56,378 nt of DNA, from positions 1 to 56,378 of the IMG/VR virus record IMGVR_UViG_3300027816_000119, one strand, 5' to 3'. Each line of letters opens with the position of its first letter. Positions within the stretch are counted from its first letter, which is position 1. The position numbers and the translations under genes are program-made. The DNA is from a virus. The notes under the pieces are model-generated. The model saw nothing but the letters and a program-made list of their open reading frames with translations, was not told the DNA's origin and searched no databases. Shown here one piece after another: positions 9,942 to 56,296 of this stretch.

Positions 9942-12900
9942 TTAAATTTCTTCAAATGTATAACCTAAACCTAAACTTTCTAAATATCCTTTAGTATCTT
10001 CATCTACTTCATCACCTAATTGGTAATCAGTCTCACCACCTTCTTCTTTAATTATTAAATTATAACCTGGTGTACCTTCTCTTCCTAAATCTTGATGATA
10101 ATAACTTTCAAAATCTTGTTTAGTAAGACCACCTGGATTTAATCCATAGTACTCATATCTACCATTATCTAAATGAATATATTGAGCATCTTTATTTTTC
10201 TTCAAAAAGTCATTTACTAAATCTACACCTTTTTTACCAGATGTTATATAAGCAAATTCAGCTTTCTTAGTTGATGGTGAATACAATATAAACTTACCTG
10301 TGTTAGGTGTATTCTGATAAATAGGATCTCCGTTTTTATCCAAGAGTCTCATTTCATTACCATTCATTATTGCTTTATCTATATTCTTAGCTCCAAATCT
10401 TCTTGGTACTATTTCAGTATCTGGATCAAATTCATTTGCTTTACCTACTTTAAATTTACCATCTTCTATTCCATAGAAAGATTCAATTTTATTAGATGGA
10501 TACTTTTTATCTGAATATGTATCTGTAGCAGTTAACCAATCTTTAGCCTTTCTAACTGTATTATTAGCATCCTCTATAAACTCACCACCGATTATAATTT
10601 TACCATCTTTTGTTTCATTAACTTTAGCAAAATCCATAGGGGTATTAGTTATATCAATAAGTGTATCTTTAGAACTTAAACCTCCAGGTACACCTGTAAC
10701 TCCAACATTTTTTAAAATTTTATTTTTAATCGGGGGTGGTGAAAAAGCTGTTCCAAAAACAGCAGCGGCTCCAGGATAAGCTGATCCTACTAAACCAGCT
10801 ATTGTGTAATCAGTAGCATTCCAGTTTCTTCCTCCATAAAGTATTGGGTTTACTCTACTTCTATTACCTGTAGTAATAGCTTCATTTAAATGTTCATCCA
10901 TGTAGTTAGGTAAAGTCCAATCACTTCCATATTTATTTATTAAATCCGCATGTTCTTGAGAAAACTTTTGATATTCAGGTGAATTTTTATAAGCTAATAT
11001 TTCTTCTTCTGTTAAAGGTCCTTTTGGATATCTTTGAAATGCTCCTTTAAGATTTATAGAGTAGCCACTTTTTACTGGAGGAGGTGTACCACCTTCAATA
11101 GGAGCTTTTGGTTCTACTTGTAGTAATGATTCTTTATTATAACCTCTTTTACCAAAATCAAAATTACTATTCTTAAGTCTGTCTAATTCTCTTAACTGAG
11201 CTTCAGTAAGCATATCCCCTTGTTTCCTACCTGTTTCAATAAGATCATTATAAAACTTTCTATTAGCAAATGACATTTTTTTAGAATCATAACTATCTAA
11301 CAGTTGCTTATAGTAATTTAAATTTTTCTTAACCATATTACTACCACTACCACTTGGTCCTAGTAACATCATAGGTCCAGGAGGTCTATTAAAAAATTTA
11401 TTTACCATGTTTGATACAGGTGAATTAGGAGAGCCAGGTAATTGCTTAGACCATGTTTTACCTCCATCTAAACTATACTCTATATCTTTACCTTTAACAG
11501 CCGGATACTGACCCATAAAACCTAGATCCTTTTTACCTTTATTAGCAAATCTTAATAATACAGGTTTACCACCAGTTGCTTCTGCTGAGTAACCTGCAAA
11601 ATTTAAAGCATATCCACTATCTCCTGCAGCAGTTGTAAAACCTTTTCCTAATTTATCAGGCATCATACCACCTGTATTTACGGCATCACCTAAACTATTA
11701 TCCAATTCAGATGATAAAATATTTTTTAATCTAGCATCAGATGTACCGTGATATAAGTATTTAGGCACAGGAAGTTTTAAATCATTTTTTATTACTTCTG
11801 CAGCAGCTATAAGATTAGAATTTGAAAAACCAAATCCTTTATTACTATAAGTATTAAGTACCTCATTAACTGTTTTATTAGAACTTTTTGCAACTTCTTT
11901 TAAAAAGTCTGCTGCTTCTTGCTCTGTTTTAAAACTTGAGTTAGCTACAATATCATCTATATGTTTTTGTAGTGTAATGTCAGAAGCTCCTGAAGAATTT
12001 ATTTTACCTGTATTTTGAAAAGTTGATTTAACACCTTTACCTAAATCAGTTACAAGATCTCCTGCTTTAGTAAATTTTGATAATTTACTAATAGCATTTA
12101 TACCAGGTATAGCTCCAAGAACATCAAAGGTTTGATTAATACCACTACCATAGTTTTCACCTGTAAGTACATTTGTACCCATATCAAAATTTCCGGTATT
12201 AGAATAATTTACTGCACCTTCAACTAAACCTTGAGGTAATGTTGCAACATCAGCAACAGTTTTAGCTACACCTTCAGCAGTACCAACAGGATCGGCAACT
12301 ATTCTATATGCTCCGCCACCAAGTAGTTCTAATGCTGTATTAGTAACTCCCATATTGGCTTCTTTTCTTTTGTTAGCTTCATCAACAGCTTCTTGAAATT
12401 GACCTTTGTAAGCTTCATTCATTACATTGGGATCAAATCTATCCCAGCCTTTTTCTTCATACTCCATTCGGAATTTAGTTCCTGCACTTAAATCTTTACT
12501 ACTCTGTGCTTTTTTTCTTGCCTTTTCATATTCTTTTCTTTCTTTCTCTTCATTTTTATAATACTTGTTTTGTTCAGAAACTATATTATTTATATAACTT
12601 TTAAATCTTTTAATTCCTTCTTTAGTTGTATTTGTAGAAATTAACGGTTCATTAGCACCTATACCAAACTCTGAAGAATATTTTTTACCAAAGTCTTTCA
12701 TTTGTTCTAACCTGGTTTTACCACCTCTGAGAATCCAATCAGAAAGTTTCTTTCCTTTTTTAGCTTGAATATTAATACCACTTTTATTTTTAATCCATTC
12801 TTTTGAATTTCTATCATACTCCCATCCTTCTGCTTGTGGACCGATATGGTAATCCCAATCAACATCCACAAGATTCCAATCTAAGGGAACACATTCTCCT

Positions 12901-15473
12901 TTAGAATTTCTATAATATCCTCTACCACATGGAGAACCACCTTCTATAAATTTATCTAATGATCCACCATACTTTCCATACTGAATATCATCTTTATTAG
13001 AATCCTTCTTAGCAATAAGATTAAATAACCTCATTAAGCTTTCATCATCTTTTGCTGTTCTAAATAATAAGTAAATATCTTGATTAAAGTTTTTATTATC
13101 TTTATCAAGCATTCCTTTTTTCTCAGCCTCCTCTCTCATCTGATTCAATCTCTCTGGAGTAATTACCTCATCAGGTTTAAGATTAAATTTCTTTCTAGCC
13201 ACATTAAGATATGATTGAATATTCTGTTCTTCTGGATTTATTATGTAATCATAAAATTGTTGTTTTTCTTTTGGCCAAGTTTTATCAAAAGGAATTATAT
13301 TTTCTTTTACAATTTTGTCATACATAGGATACAACTTGTCTCTCACAGGTTCCATAAGATAATTAGTTAACTCATGTCTTTCTGTATCAGACTTTTGTTC
13401 AGGTGTAAGTTCTGGACTAAAATATATTTTTGGAACTTTTCCACTTGTGTCATACATTCCAACTGCTCGGAAACCTCCTATATTTTCTTGCGTATATTCC
13501 TCTGGCATTGTTTCATATACTGGGAATGATTGCATTTGTTTAAGCATAGGTGATTCAGGATTGTATGCTGGTAATGCTTTTTCTACAACCTTTTTAAAAC
13601 TAGGTTGATCTTCTGGAAAATCTATTTTTCTATTCTTATACCATTCAACCATCCATCTTTGATCTTCTGTCATATTCTCTTCAGACAGAGGAATACAACC
13701 AAGTTTTGGATCATAAGTATAACCATCATCACATGGAGAACCACCTGCTATAAATTTATGTAATGACCCACCAAGTTCTTGCTTATATGGACTCATAAAT
13801 TGACCTGGATCATTTGGTCCTTTTTTTAAATATACATTATTAGCAGGATTTTTATTTACAATACCATCAGGTAACATGTTTTGATTAGAGAGTTCTAATA
13901 AAGCATTTGTCTTATCTCTTGAGCTCATAGGTAATATACCTACACCAGCACCAACAGCATTATTTAGTATATCTTCACCAGACTCTGTAAATTTAACCAA
14001 CCATGGTCTATCATCATTAAATATAGTTTCTAACTCATGACCTACACCCATTGCATTAGCACCTAAAAAACCAGCAGCTTGCGGTATACCTGTGTATTGT
14101 GCCCAGTCTGGAAAATAATCCATAATTGCTTCAGCTGCATATCTACCACCTTGAGGATGTCTAAAATTATCTATAGGATCATCATCTTCTTTTGCAGCAC
14201 CATAAGCAGACATAGCTGCTTTGTCCATAGGATTATCTAAAGCACTATTTATTTTATCCTCAAAGCTATTACCTCTATATAAAATTTCTTGAGTTGAACC
14301 AGGATCATATAGTTCTATTTCTTTTATTTCTCTTAGCAATCCTGCTGCTGTTTCTTGATCAGCAAGTAAAGGTGAATTTTTTAATTTCTCATATTGCTCA
14401 ACTAACTTTTGATAATAAGAACTAAATGTATCAGTTTTTTTGTTAGCTTTTTTAGCTGCAGCTTTAGCTTTTTTAGATGCTTTTATTGTAACTTCTTTAA
14501 GATTTTGTATATATGTAGGATTGTATGATCTTTTAGGAATAGTCTTGTCTAAATATTTTTTAAATTCTTCATCTGAATTATTTTCTAATATTCTTCTTTT
14601 TTCATCCTGTAATAAATACAATGGAGTATAATCAACTAATGCATTTTCACATCTTTTAGTATATGGATTCCATACTTGACCTTTCCCACATGGTTTATTT
14701 GAACCACCTCTATCATAATCAACTAAGCCACCATCTTCATAATATTTTGCATTAGGATCATAAATTCTATTCTTTACTTTCTTAGGTTTAAATAATTTAT
14801 TTTTTACAAACAGTTTATTCTTACCAAAAATACTTTTTGTGTACTTCATAGAATTTAAACTACCACCCTTACGGAACTGCTCTCCTACAGATCCTAATGC
14901 AGCTATTACTTCAGGCTTATCATCAAAATGCTTTTCTACTCCAAGTTGTTTTACTTTACGTACCTTAGCTTCATCTGAACCAGTAGCTATAATATTTTCA
15001 ACTGGAATGCCTGCTTGTCTAGCTCGGGCAATCATATCTGGTGTTACTTTATCTCTGGCAGATACAATAAAAAGATTATAGCCATCTCTAAACATTTTCT
15101 TAGCTTTAGCTAAACCTTCAGGTGTTGCAATAGTTTTATCAAAGTCAAAAGATGCATATTTACCTTTACCAAAATCTTCTGGCTGCTCCATCTCTGAATG
15201 CTCTCTATAATTAGCTGTAAGTTCTGAACCAGCGGGGATATTTTTTAAAGCTCTTAGGTATCTTTTATCTCCTATTACTTCATTACTAGTATTAAAGTTT
15301 TTTTCATCATGATTATAGAACTTACCAAACTGATTTGGTACAAATCTTATTCTATCATTATCTATAGGAATGCCAGAGTGTACGGGTAATATTAGTTCAC
15401 CCTTTTTAATTAGTTCTTGAGTAAATAAACCTTTACCATGTATCTTGGACTTTCCAACTTTTACTTTCTTCAT
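9942..15473 (-). CDS. Multidomain virion effector polyprotein with SET, HAD, zincin-like and ART-like domains
   Basis: 1843 residues. In order: SET methyltransferase domain (1-92); HAD phosphatase domain (104-195); FRKGGSLNS; a GGSNKPC...C motif (256-276); a Lys/Ala-rich linker and a domain with paired DNFRH (435-439) and GHE (478-480) motifs; a GGSPC motif (577-593); a zincin-like domain with RHELTN (699-704); a GGSPC motif (845-861); delivery-like repeat C (904-1150); a HGT-type ADP-ribosyltransferase-like domain (about 1230-1345); a region with an unrecognised C-terminal domain (about 1600-1810); and a divergent module-end tag (1812-1843). The ATG overlaps the TAA of the nozzle gene by one base (ATGxx/TAA at 15473), so it is translated from the same message. 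Length and makeup suit a capsid or tail cargo protein; injection is inferred. Confidence 0.85.
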   Translation of the reverse strand: MKKVKVGKSKIHGKGLFTQELIKKGELILPVHSGIPIDNDRIRFVPNQFGKFYNHDEKNFNTSNEVIGDKRYLRALKNIPAGSELTANYREHSEMEQPEDFGKGKYASFDFDKTIATPEGLAKAKKMFRDGYNLFIVSARDKVTPDMIARARQAGIPVENIIATGSDEAKVRKVKQLGVEKHFDDKPEVIAALGSVGEQFRKGGSLNSMKYTKSIFGKNKLFVKNKLFKPKKVKNRIYDPNAKYYEDGGLVDYDRGGSNKPCGKGQVWNPYTKRCENALVDYTPLYLLQDEKRRILENNSDEEFKKYLDKTIPKRSYNPTYIQNLKEVTIKASKKAKAAAKKANKKTDTFSSYYQKLVEQYEKLKNSPLLADQETAAGLLREIKEIELYDPGSTQEILYRGNSFEDKINSALDNPMDKAAMSAYGAAKEDDDPIDNFRHPQGGRYAAEAIMDYFPDWAQYTGIPQAAGFLGANAMGVGHELETIFNDDRPWLVKFTESGEDILNNAVGAGVGILPMSSRDKTNALLELSNQNMLPDGIVNKNPANNVYLKKGPNDPGQFMSPYKQELGGSLHKFIAGGSPCDDGYTYDPKLGCIPLSEENMTEDQRWMVEWYKNRKIDFPEDQPSFKKVVEKALPAYNPESPMLKQMQSFPVYETMPEEYTQENIGGFRAVGMYDTSGKVPKIYFSPELTPEQKSDTERHELTNYLMEPVRDKLYPMYDKIVKENIIPFDKTWPKEKQQFYDYIINPEEQNIQSYLNVARKKFNLKPDEVITPERLNQMREEAEKKGMLDKDNKNFNQDIYLLFRTAKDDESLMRLFNLIAKKDSNKDDIQYGKYGGSLDKFIEGGSPCGRGYYRNSKGECVPLDWNLVDVDWDYHIGPQAEGWEYDRNSKEWIKNKSGINIQAKKGKKLSDWILRGGKTRLEQMKDFGKKYSSEFGIGANEPLISTNTTKEGIKRFKSYINNIVSEQNKYYKNEEKERKEYEKARKKAQSSKDLSAGTKFRMEYEEKGWDRFDPNVMNEAYKGQFQEAVDEANKRKEANMGVTNTALELLGGGAYRIVADPVGTAEGVAKTVADVATLPQGLVEGAVNYSNTGNFDMGTNVLTGENYGSGINQTFDVLGAIPGINAISKLSKFTKAGDLVTDLGKGVKSTFQNTGKINSSGASDITLQKHIDDIVANSSFKTEQEAADFLKEVAKSSNKTVNEVLNTYSNKGFGFSNSNLIAAAEVIKNDLKLPVPKYLYHGTSDARLKNILSSELDNSLGDAVNTGGMMPDKLGKGFTTAAGDSGYALNFAGYSAEATGGKPVLLRFANKGKKDLGFMGQYPAVKGKDIEYSLDGGKTWSKQLPGSPNSPVSNMVNKFFNRPPGPMMLLGPSGSGSNMVKKNLNYYKQLLDSYDSKKMSFANRKFYNDLIETGRKQGDMLTEAQLRELDRLKNSNFDFGKRGYNKESLLQVEPKAPIEGGTPPPVKSGYSINLKGAFQRYPKGPLTEEEILAYKNSPEYQKFSQEHADLINKYGSDWTLPNYMDEHLNEAITTGNRSRVNPILYGGRNWNATDYTIAGLVGSAYPGAAAVFGTAFSPPPIKNKILKNVGVTGVPGGLSSKDTLIDITNTPMDFAKVNETKDGKIIIGGEFIEDANNTVRKAKDWLTATDTYSDKKYPSNKIESFYGIEDGKFKVGKANEFDPDTEIVPRRFGAKNIDKAIMNGNEMRLLDKNGDPIYQNTPNTGKFILYSPSTKKAEFAYITSGKKGVDLVNDFLKKNKDAQYIHLDNGRYEYYGLNPGGLTKQDFESYYHQDLGREGTPGYNLIIKEEGGETDYQLGDEVDEDTKGYLESLGLGYTFEEI
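9945..10040 (-). repeat. Module-end tag, divergent copy 3 (C-terminus of the 1843-residue protein)
   Basis: GGETDYQLGDEVDE... ending YLESLGLGYTFEEI aligns with the GG..DYIELDIPE...YL.NGY.VEEV tags of the neighbouring protein and forms the very end of this chain. Confidence 0.6.
11439..11786 (-). other. HGT-type ADP-ribosyltransferase-like domain (residues 1230-1345)
   Basis: KYLYHGTSDARLKNIL (1238-1253) is the usual first strand and helix of PARP/diphtheria-type ARTs, with H1242 as NAD-binding His. GKGFTTAAGDSGYALNFAG (1277-1294...) supplies the second-motif Tyr region. I did not find an unambiguous third (Glu) residue, so activity is uncertain. It follows repeat C, as the other toxin-like domains follow A and B. 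Confidence 0.55.
12024..12764 (-). repeat. Delivery-like repeat module C (residues 904-1150)
   Basis: AKKGKKLSDWILRGGKTR start, RMEYEEKGWDRF, KGQFQEAVDEANKRKEANMG, DPVGTAEGVAKTVADVATLP, FDMGTNVLTGENYGSG and FDVLGAIPGINAISKLSKF. It is close to repeat A over its full length. Confidence 0.85.
12876..12941 (-). repeat. GGSPC...C motif, copy 4 (residues 845-866)
   Basis: YGGSLDKFIEGGSPCGRG, then C861 and VPLDW. It marks the start of the segment that carries repeat C. Confidence 0.75.
13314..13556 (-). other. Degenerate zincin-like domain (residues 640-720)
   Basis: PKIYFSPELTPEQ is followed by DTERHELTNYLMEP (696-709). HELTN sits where zincin peptidases have HExxH, but the second zinc His is Asn703-704 context, so the site is probably inactive or has shifted to another role. 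Confidence 0.35.
13686..13745 (-). repeat. GGSPC...C motif, copy 3 (residues 577-596)
   Basis: LGGSLHKFIAGGSPCDDG, then C593 and IPL. Its preceding GGSL.KFI block is shared with copy 4. Confidence 0.75.
14640..14708 (-). repeat. GGxxPC...C motif, copy 2 (residues 256-278)
   Basis: DRGGSNKPCGKGQVW, then C275. It follows the HAD domain and begins the next segment. Confidence 0.7.
14889..15164 (-). other. HAD-superfamily phosphatase domain (residues 104-195)
   Basis: Motif I is ASFDFDKTIA (107-116), giving the DxDxT triad D110, D112, T114. Motif II is FIVSAR (135-140). The acidic motif IV is KHFDDKPEVI (181-190). The compact form resembles phage and PNK-type HAD phosphatases that act on nucleotides or polynucleotide ends; the substrate here is unknown. 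Confidence 0.75.
15198..15473 (-). other. SET-domain protein lysine methyltransferase (residues 1-92)
   Basis: KIHGKGLFTQELIKKGELI (10-28) matches the SET N-terminal strand pair with the SAM-binding GxGL. FYNHDEKN (52-59) fits the NH(S/D) motif and AGSELTANY (81-89) fits the GEELTxDY motif. It is a minimal SET domain of bacterial or viral size at the front of the polyprotein. Confidence 0.75.
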
Positions 15474-53897: not shown

Positions 53898-54095
53898 TTA
53901 AAACATTATCCCTAGGAGGAATGATATCAATAGCATAAACACAAGGGTTATGTTAGCATATTTTTTTCCTTCCGGATCTTCTTCCCAGACATTGTGCATT
54001 TTATTATATAAAGGTCTACTCATAGCATTATTAACTAGGAATAAGAATCCTAATACTAATATACCAACTATAAACAATAATCCTTTAAGTATCAT
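53898..54095 (-). CDS. Small two-segment membrane protein
   Basis: 65 residues with TM segments at about 3-22 (LKGLLFIVGILVLGFLFLVN) and 46-63 (ITLVFMLLISFLLGI), and a short charged loop between. ATGA overlap with the DUF3310-like gene. Role unknown; superinfection exclusion or lysis help are possible. Confidence 0.6.
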   Translation of the reverse strand: MILKGLLFIVGILVLGFLFLVNNAMSRPLYNKMHNVWEEDPEGKKYANITLVFMLLISFLLGIMF

Positions 54096-54463
54096 AATGA
54101 GTTAATTCTTTTTTGTAAATATACTAAAGCTTTTTTTAAATCTTCCTTTTGGGTTAATTTATTTTTCTTACCAGCTCTAGCTACATACTTAATTACATTA
54201 CCTAGATAGAAATCTTTATCAAGTCCCCAAGCTTCTAATACTTGGAATACTTCATATGTATTATCCTTACCACCATAATAGTCAGGCCTTGGCCCTTCAT
54301 CTAAGTTTACAACTCTTTTCTGCCAGTCTATTTCTGTTGCTAAAGGAGAAGCTGGTCTATTAATATAAGTATCTTTTCCATAAACTCCATCCACCATATC
54401 TTTATATGGAGAGTATGTATCACCTGGACTTGGTTTATATGTGTTATAATTTCTTTCAGCCAT
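54092..54463 (-). CDS. DUF3310-like (SaV-type) protein
   Basis: 123 residues. The C-terminal half has the family pattern: PDYYGGKDNTYEVFQVLEAWGL, LGNVIKYVARAGKKN and EDLKKALVYLQKRI. Such proteins are common in phages as a small nucleotide-kinase-linked or unknown domain. The N-terminal 45 residues are extended and Tyr/Asp-rich. Confidence 0.75.
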   Translation of the reverse strand: MAERNYNTYKPSPGDTYSPYKDMVDGVYGKDTYINRPASPLATEIDWQKRVVNLDEGPRPDYYGGKDNTYEVFQVLEAWGLDKDFYLGNVIKYVARAGKKNKLTQKEDLKKALVYLQKRINSL

Positions 54464-55224: not shown

Positions 55225-55668
55225 CTATTTTTTAAAAAATCCTTTTTTTGGTTCTTCTTTTTTATTAAATCCTAATTTCTCTATAATCTTATTAGCTTCA
55301 TCTTCAGCAAAGCCAATCACCTCTTCTTCCTTATCAGTAATCTTCCAGTTGTTAAGTAGAATACTCATGTGCATAGTCTCATGCATAACTGCAGTACATT
55401 TCTCAGTCAAGCTATACTTTTTAAATGCACCTAGATTTATAAATAGGAAAGGTTTTAATGGAGCCTTTGCAGTCAACTTCTTATCTGCCGGGTCATAGTT
55501 AGTCCACCCATAAATATAAACCCCATTACCTACAGTCTTATCAACCTCTTCTGCCTTGGCATCCTTTAGATTCAACCCGTGCATCTCATCCACATCATAG
55601 TAATCAAAGATCTCTGTAGCATTATCACCTACTAAGAGAACATACTTATCCATGTCAAACTTTTTCAT
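55225..55668 (-). CDS. Zincin-type metalloprotease-like protein (HETMH)
   Basis: 147 residues. CTAVMHETMHMSIL (91-104) gives the HExxH zinc motif with H96, E97 and H100, placed in a helix after a hydrophobic beta strand (FLFINLGAF). A third ligand could be E116 or the EDEA region near 122. C-terminal KKEEPKKGFFKK is basic. It is the rightmost minus-strand gene, alone between two terminators. Target unknown; one possibility, inferred, is processing of virion proteins at GG sites. Confidence 0.7.
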   Translation of the reverse strand: MKKFDMDKYVLLVGDNATEIFDYYDVDEMHGLNLKDAKAEEVDKTVGNGVYIYGWTNYDPADKKLTAKAPLKPFLFINLGAFKKYSLTEKCTAVMHETMHMSILLNNWKITDKEEEVIGFAEDEANKIIEKLGFNKKEEPKKGFFKK

Positions 55669-55680: not shown

Positions 55681-55696
55681 AAATTTTTTGGCTAAA

Positions 55697-55732
55697 CTAA
55701 AAAGCCCAAGAATTTTTTCTGGGGCTTTTTAG
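55697..55732. terminator. Strong terminator hairpin upstream of the HExxH gene
   Basis: CTAAAAAGCCC(C)AGAA and TTCTTGGGCTTTTTAG form a stem of about 15 pairs with flanking T/A tracts, able to act in both directions. On the minus strand it would block transcripts coming from the divergence region. Confidence 0.85.
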
Positions 55733-55866
55733 CATAATTTAAAAAAACATTCTTATGAACAAAGAAGAATCCTAACAAAGGTATACAAAATTTTTTTTCT
55801 ACCAAATTTTTTTTGAACTATATTAGAGGTTGTGATGGGGTATGTACTACAGCCACCCCGGCCCGC

Positions 55867-55901
55867 AGCTGCAAAGGGGGTACCCCCTGGTCTTTGCAGC
55901 T
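55867..55901. repeat. Nested palindrome: AGCTGCAAAG ... CTTTGCAGCT around GGGGGTACCCCC
   Basis: Perfect 10-base arms 55867-55876 and 55892-55901 enclose GGGGGTACCCCC (55876-55887), itself a perfect palindrome. A third CTTTGCA at 55907-55913 follows. Confidence 0.9.
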
Positions 55902-55927
55902 CTTGCCTTTGCACACATCCACCACAC

Positions 55928-55959
55928 AAAAACTTTTTTTCAGCCAAAAAAAAGTTTTT
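55928..55959. repeat. A/T inverted repeat (AAAAACTTTTTTT / AAAAAAAAGTTTTT)
   Basis: Thirteen-base arms around CAGCC. It could act as a terminator in either direction or as an easily melted element. Confidence 0.7.
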
Positions 55960-56017
55960 CTTACATGCTGTAGCTACCAACCCTAGAATTCCATTGAATC
56001 ATTAAAAATAATTAACA

Positions 56018-56296
56018 ATGGAAACTATTGCAATTTTCGTACAAGAGTACTCAAATCCCAAACAGTCTGACTATGTACGCTGTAAAGTAATAAAGTCTAA
56101 ATCTCCGATTGAGACTTTCTCACTTCACAAAGCATACATAAGCAGCTTTACTGTAAAACTCAAATATGACACAGGGTACATAATTGACTATTACAGTAAA
56201 CCGTCAAAGTGCGGCAAGTTCACCGACCACAAAGTGGCCGCTGTACTTGACACATTGACTAAGCAGGAAGTCAGAGACATGCTCCTAGGATACTAG
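56018..56296 (+). CDS. First rightward gene, small protein of unknown function
   Basis: 92 residues: ETIAIFVQEYSNPKQSDYVR, then CKVIKSKSPIETFSLHKAYI, a central KLKYDTGYIIDYYSKPSKCG and a helical end TLTKQEVRDMLLGY. No family recognised. It begins after an A-rich leader (ATTAAAAATAATTAACA) and ends 8 bases before a terminator, so it is a single-gene unit, probably early. Its GC content and codon use differ somewhat from the structural genes. Confidence 0.65.
   Translation: METIAIFVQEYSNPKQSDYVRCKVIKSKSPIETFSLHKAYISSFTVKLKYDTGYIIDYYSKPSKCGKFTDHKVAAVLDTLTKQEVRDMLLGY

Follow-up and report, generated by a model that had tools for sequence, protein, structure and literature searches.

What is the role of the DNA from which the genes of a crAss-like phage run away in opposite directions? 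The initial annotation of such a point described nested palindromes there, and listed replication origin, packaging signal and regulator array as options. We have analyzed the whole stretch available (the window), a linear IMG/VR record of 56 kb that ends ~360 bp to the right of the studied feature, so that the early block had to be read from relatives. The genes that identify the phage and those that flank the feature are the following:

Leftward gene of the window: crassvirus major capsid protein (PF23898, E 4.6e-29)
Leftward gene of the window: crassvirus muzzle protein (PF25731, E 4.2e-27)
Leftward gene of the window: crAss-type terminase (phrog_6681, E 1.4e-55)
55225-55668, minus strand: first leftward ORF, 147 aa, with the motif HETMH (HExxH), no Pfam or PHROG match
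56018-56296, plus strand: first ORF on the rightward (early) side, 92 aa, of no known family

The window belongs to a crAss-like phage, with the major capsid and muzzle proteins placing it in Crassvirales, and the two flanking ORFs bear out the divergence of transcription. By their terminases, the closest annotated relatives are crAss-like phages of Bacteroides and Flavobacterium (20-27% identity). The DNA of the feature gave no direct similarity to annotated phages by blastn. Among the other leftward genes we found a 1843-aa protein with a weak SET-domain match (9942-15473, minus strand; PF00856, E 3e-6) and, close to the divergence point, a DUF3310 / phage nucleotide kinase-related protein (54092-54463, minus strand).

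A conserved single-copy element at the late/early divergence

We retrieved 80 relatives of the leftward gene (55225-55668) and inspected their upstream DNA. With a profile derived from 11 seeds we located one element in about 70 of the 80 loci, normally once per locus and in constant orientation, so the conservation in relatives suggested as a check by the initial annotation turned out to be strong. In the window, the element and its parts are:

55817-55892, plus strand: single-copy core of ~75 bp, TATATAAGAG nn TGTGRTG ... CCCC ... GGnGGTACCCCC (nhmmer E ~1e-14)
55819-55837, plus strand: left block TATATTAGAGGTTGTGATG (alignment columns 7-25)
55855-55858, plus strand: first C-run, invariant in nearly all relatives (alignment columns 43-46)
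55876-55887: GGGGGTACCCCC, made of the second C-run, conserved, and a GGnGG half that is usual, not universal (alignment columns 63-75)

After removal of duplicates, 90 distinct versions could be aligned across 84 columns with zero gaps, and gave the plus-strand consensus TATATAAGAGnnTGTGRTGGG.CCT..AT.A....CCCCCGGCCC-N10-GGGGGTACCCCC. Both C-runs were almost invariant. In some relatives C-rich sequence took the place of the GGnGG half, and some had CCTCCCACCCCCC or GCCCCTACCCCCC instead of GGGGGTACCCCC. Most members have one left block only; in four relatives (L009, L030, L051 and L064) a tandem copy of the left half appears, 25-37 bp apart. Such gaplessness over 75 bp, with variable bases between the blocks, is what would be expected of a protein-binding array.

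The element is not tied to the neighboring gene. A DNA-pattern scan that does not rely on the leftward gene found 79 true elements among 91 viral stretches, and in about half of these 79 the leftward gene was absent from the retrieved stretch. Those of them that we examined were again flanked by leftward and rightward ORFs, with L156, itself a weak match, as the one clear exception, apart from a few small ORFs that may not be real. Pattern matches in bacterial genomes were due to chance, none being scored by the profile. In each of seven long relatives (107-136 kb) the core scored once per genome, and the remaining matches, weak and located in or beside coding sequence, were rejected as extra copies. 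These data show a conserved single-copy DNA control element, fixed in orientation, at the late/early divergence of crAss-like genomes.

Palindromes and folding

All the words and arms named in the initial annotation were located in the window sequence, and TTTGCA words recur in the segment. The inverted repeats are as follows:

55867-55876, plus strand: left 10-base arm AGCTGCAAAG, perfect, not conserved beyond near relatives
55892-55901, plus strand: right 10-base arm CTTTGCAGCT, perfect, not conserved beyond near relatives
55847-55853 and 55967-55973: outer arms CTACAGC and GCTGTAG
55928-55940 and 55947-55959: A/T-rich inverted repeat to the right of the core, with 13 bp arms that are 100% complementary

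The nested palindromes are therefore present and perfect in the window, but they are not what relatives keep, which is the gapless sequence element instead. The 10-base arms are absent from the core consensus, and when the pairing of the dyad was scored in 89 versions, all five pairs were found in 8, four of five in 51, and two or fewer in 16. The perfect palindrome of the window is the extreme case of a loose, imperfect dyad, and the perfect palindromes are mostly peculiar to its close lineage. A/T-rich tracts are seen by eye, unscored, at about the same place in many relatives.

A structured RNA or riboregulator, in which the palindromes would act as RNA, is suggested by the window itself. 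Folded as single-stranded RNA, the segment 55820-56017 reached -57.2 kcal/mol versus -41.9 +/- 4.06 for dinucleotide shuffles (z = -3.77; 0 of 200 shuffles equally good), more than chance for this single sequence. Against this, RNAalifold returned an empty structure, with no covarying helices, for 55 versions on the plus and minus strands and for 90 versions on the plus strand, the median z of individual versions was only -0.93, and Rfam gave no credible match for the segment. We have discarded a structured RNA on these three results, and consider it exceedingly improbable. The lack of a shared RNA structure together with the variable 10-base arms indicates that the element probably acts as DNA.

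The GC-rich hairpin of the window recalls the hairpin promoters of coliphage N4. However, a conserved hairpin with a small loop of the N4 type was not found among the relatives, the dyad being imperfect in most of them and absent in several.

Transcription signals, genome layout and GC skew

Around the core we have found signals that differ on the two sides:

55776-55806, minus strand: leftward host-type (Bacteroidetes) promoter TTTG-N19-TACCTTTG, whose -33 box adjoins the core
55696-55735: terminator-like hairpin within the leftward gene's leader, with similar ones in many relatives
55978-55984, plus strand: CAACCCT, an early gene-start motif located 33 nt upstream of the rightward ATG

The leftward promoter, of the Bacteroidetes type (TTTG-N19-TAnnTTTG), is located directly to the left of the core. 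In its strict form (TTG-N17-21-TAnnTTTG within 150 bp) it was found in 20 of 53 relatives versus 0.7 expected from shuffles, with the -33 box 0-30 bp from the core in most of the promoter-bearing relatives. This proximity would fit an operator or enhancer of the adjacent late promoter. Nevertheless, the core faces the early gene, abutting it in some relatives, and the strict leftward promoter is present in a fraction of them and not in all, which makes such a role highly improbable. Between the leftward gene and the element, five relatives (L005, L008, L009, L026 and L030) carry a repeated structured segment starting with CCCAGACAGTACTTCTTGATCAGAGAAACTTATCTGGG that is possibly a small RNA gene.

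On the rightward side, no host-type promoter was detected in the first kilobase of the genomes of relatives. What appears there are short repeated motifs, separate from the core, that look like early gene-start signals. Of 77 relatives, 34 (5.1 expected) carry YARCCCW after the core and ahead of the first rightward ATG, mostly at 24-34 nt from the latter. Other lineages use other words. In two relatives, G002 and G008 (L084-L095), CAACTTYTATT appears eight times on the early strand within the first 10 kb to the right of the element and is absent from the rest of both genomes, so that it is a candidate for an early promoter or a gene-start motif.

With circularity assumed (a 127-bp overlap of the ends demonstrates it in G006 only), the seven long relatives share one layout when rotated to the element: 29-40 kb form the rightward block, and the remainder is leftward. 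The rightward block of G006 codes for a family-B DNA polymerase, a DnaB-like helicase and a uracil-DNA glycosylase. Another of its products is a 307-aa protein (L102:5855-6778), a possible regulator that combines an RNA polymerase alpha C-terminal domain (PF03118, E 5e-17) with a helix-turn-helix resembling sigma region 4. In Crassvirales, transcription is considered to depend on the injected virion RNA polymerase for the early/middle block and on the host enzyme for the late one (PMC10136315); middle genes are assigned to the host polymerase in PMC8375218. This scheme matches the presence of a host-type promoter leftward and of none close by rightward. The virion RNA polymerase was not identified among the window genes, and the DFDGD motif was seen only in one relative (G002).

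The reading that we prefer, tentatively, is that the element may launch the rightward early block, as a putative compound promoter/activator site of the RNA polymerase encoded by the phage. The injected enzyme would read the element and launch the early block, and the adjacent host-type promoter would serve the late one. Conservation, copy number, orientation and neighboring signals have been observed directly, whereas the start of the early programme at this point is what we infer. In favor of it, the element nearly always lies between opposed gene blocks, immediately upstream of the early one and in fixed orientation, even where the neighboring genes differ. In three relatives (L136, L182 and L213) the first early ATG follows the second C-run after just 17-27 nt, and another promoter would not fit there. 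Against a promoter, the core is long for one of phage origin, and the tandem copies of the left half are reminiscent of initiator sites. Recurrence of the whole core upstream of several early genes, usual among early promoters and not essential, was not found: a long block that contains many small genes, and hairpins of terminator type, might be expected to have several copies, and there is only one. Besides, many members have a separate short motif between the element and the first ATG, so the element is not necessarily the core promoter. The AT-rich motif of the virion RNA polymerase of Thermus phage P23-45 and the N4 hairpin promoters are likewise placed at the start of early genes in phages with an injected polymerase; they occur in several copies, whereas the crAss element is single-copy and longer, and its hairpin is not conserved.

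A close rival, nearly as likely, is a replication origin, in which a phage initiator would bind the GC block and the left repeats, with melting of the A/T-rich dyad on their right. The single copy, the long gapless core, the tandem left halves and the adjacent A/T-rich inverted repeat would all suit this possibility. The last two features are also the likeness to iteron-type origins, from which the element differs in that most members have a single left block and that no initiator gene was identified beside it. The orientation strictly fixed to the early side also speaks against an origin.

The GC skew, proposed in the initial annotation as a check for an origin, gave a divided answer. In each of the seven long relatives, the cumulative skew had its minimum at a distance of 14-211 bp from the element. 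However, the maximum fell at the convergent gene switch, about one third of the way round, and the skew at four-fold synonymous sites had no consistent sign reversal between blocks across the element, a result on which we have rejected GC skew as proof of an origin. These two observations indicate that the skew is explained by gene direction, and a change of sign independent of it, which would support an origin without being essential to it, was not seen at the element. Intergenic skew follows the blocks, in a set that still includes many small ORFs. The skew thus neither demonstrates nor excludes an origin here.

Origins have been predicted at the same position, the start of two opposed blocks, by Ori-Finder in crAss-like phage Lera (PMC12386605) and in p-crAssphage from a skew inversion interpreted as two replichores (PMC10136315). 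As at the element, these boundaries have replication genes on one side and virion genes on the other. They are software or skew predictions with no sequence element described in the papers that we consulted, whereas here the position is marked by a defined conserved element. To return to the early-promoter reading, transcription from the element could also prime replication and, speculatively, make it an origin as well. Such a transcription-primed origin would satisfy both readings. Of the options listed in the initial annotation, the origin and the regulator array are both plausible, and packaging has one suggestive coincidence in its favor, described below.

C-run pairs and genome ends in other crAss-like lineages

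The core profile gave no match in FPSV-S29, phi14:2 and cr130_1, so any order-wide claim depends entirely on the pair of C-runs. This pattern was first suggested by eye from the switch points of FPSV-S29 and phi14:2, and we examined it in ten more lineages (counting DAC15/DAC17 once); in cr272_1 and ProJPt-Bp1 the boundary was outside the retrieved stretch. The reduced form, a pair of C-runs at the switch point with a spacing of ~27-30 bp on the early strand, was found in seven other sampled lineages, was weaker in two more and absent in three. The pair was clear, among the ten, in DAC17, cr55_1, cr60_1, cr10_1 and crAss002. The start-to-start distances are:

cr55_1: 27 bp
cr60_1: 28 bp
DAC17: 28 bp
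DAC15: 29 bp
cr10_1: 24/30 bp
crAss002: 27 bp
phi14:2: 30 bp
FPSV-S29: 28 bp

In crAss001 the spacing was wider (34 bp), and in cr125_1 it was 27 with a second run of merely three C. No pair was present at the switch points of csAssE-Sib, jaberico and cr130_1. Shuffle probabilities for single regions ranged from 0.001 to 0.076. As the pattern had been picked after seeing two regions, this evidence for a probable common descent of the C-run pair is good, not conclusive. That the paired C-runs could form a cis element common to the whole of Crassvirales, from which the injected RNA polymerase would start early transcription and whose transcript would prime replication, we regard as rather doubtful. 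In FPSV-S29 (L339) the motif CAAAACCC[CT]CACT[CT]ATT appears five times, only on the early strand (positions 91596, 91479, 91220, 90703 and 87565), a candidate early promoter of Flavobacterium crAss-like phages. The first C-run of this phage is itself one of the five copies, which, like the occurrence of the C-run pair in the other lineages, speaks for the preferred reading of a launch site of early genes.

DAC15 and DAC17 provide the coincidence that concerns packaging, in which the element would be a recognition or cleavage site of the terminase. In both, the exact direct repeat annotated at the termini stops ~13 bp short of the first C-run, so that the linear end is just upstream of the C-runs and the terminal copy by the early genes retains both. 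This is compatible with a packaging cut at this point, or with a linear end just outside the early promoter. In the 80 loci retrieved with the leftward gene, contig ends were also much commoner within 2 kb of that gene on its early side than on its other side, an excess that might reflect a hypervariable region or genome ends. A packaging site is nonetheless improbable. The two phages are closely related and count as one case, contig ends are scattered round the genome in the long relatives of the window's family, and the excess is spread over 2 kb, where a variable region explains it equally well. Besides, a packaging site has no need for a fixed placement beside the first early gene.

No such element was described in the full-text literature that we searched, a coverage outside which most subscription papers fall. 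A recent review calls the replication mode of crAss-like phages unknown (PMC10136315). The GC skew often cited in favor of an origin at the switch point follows gene direction in the window's family. These phages are very abundant in the human gut, and the element may bear on how they start early transcription and genome copying. A short, conserved and recognizable element at the switch point is usable as a marker for genome orientation, and offers a well-delimited DNA segment for work with the cultured phages phi14:2, crAss001, crAss002 and DAC15.
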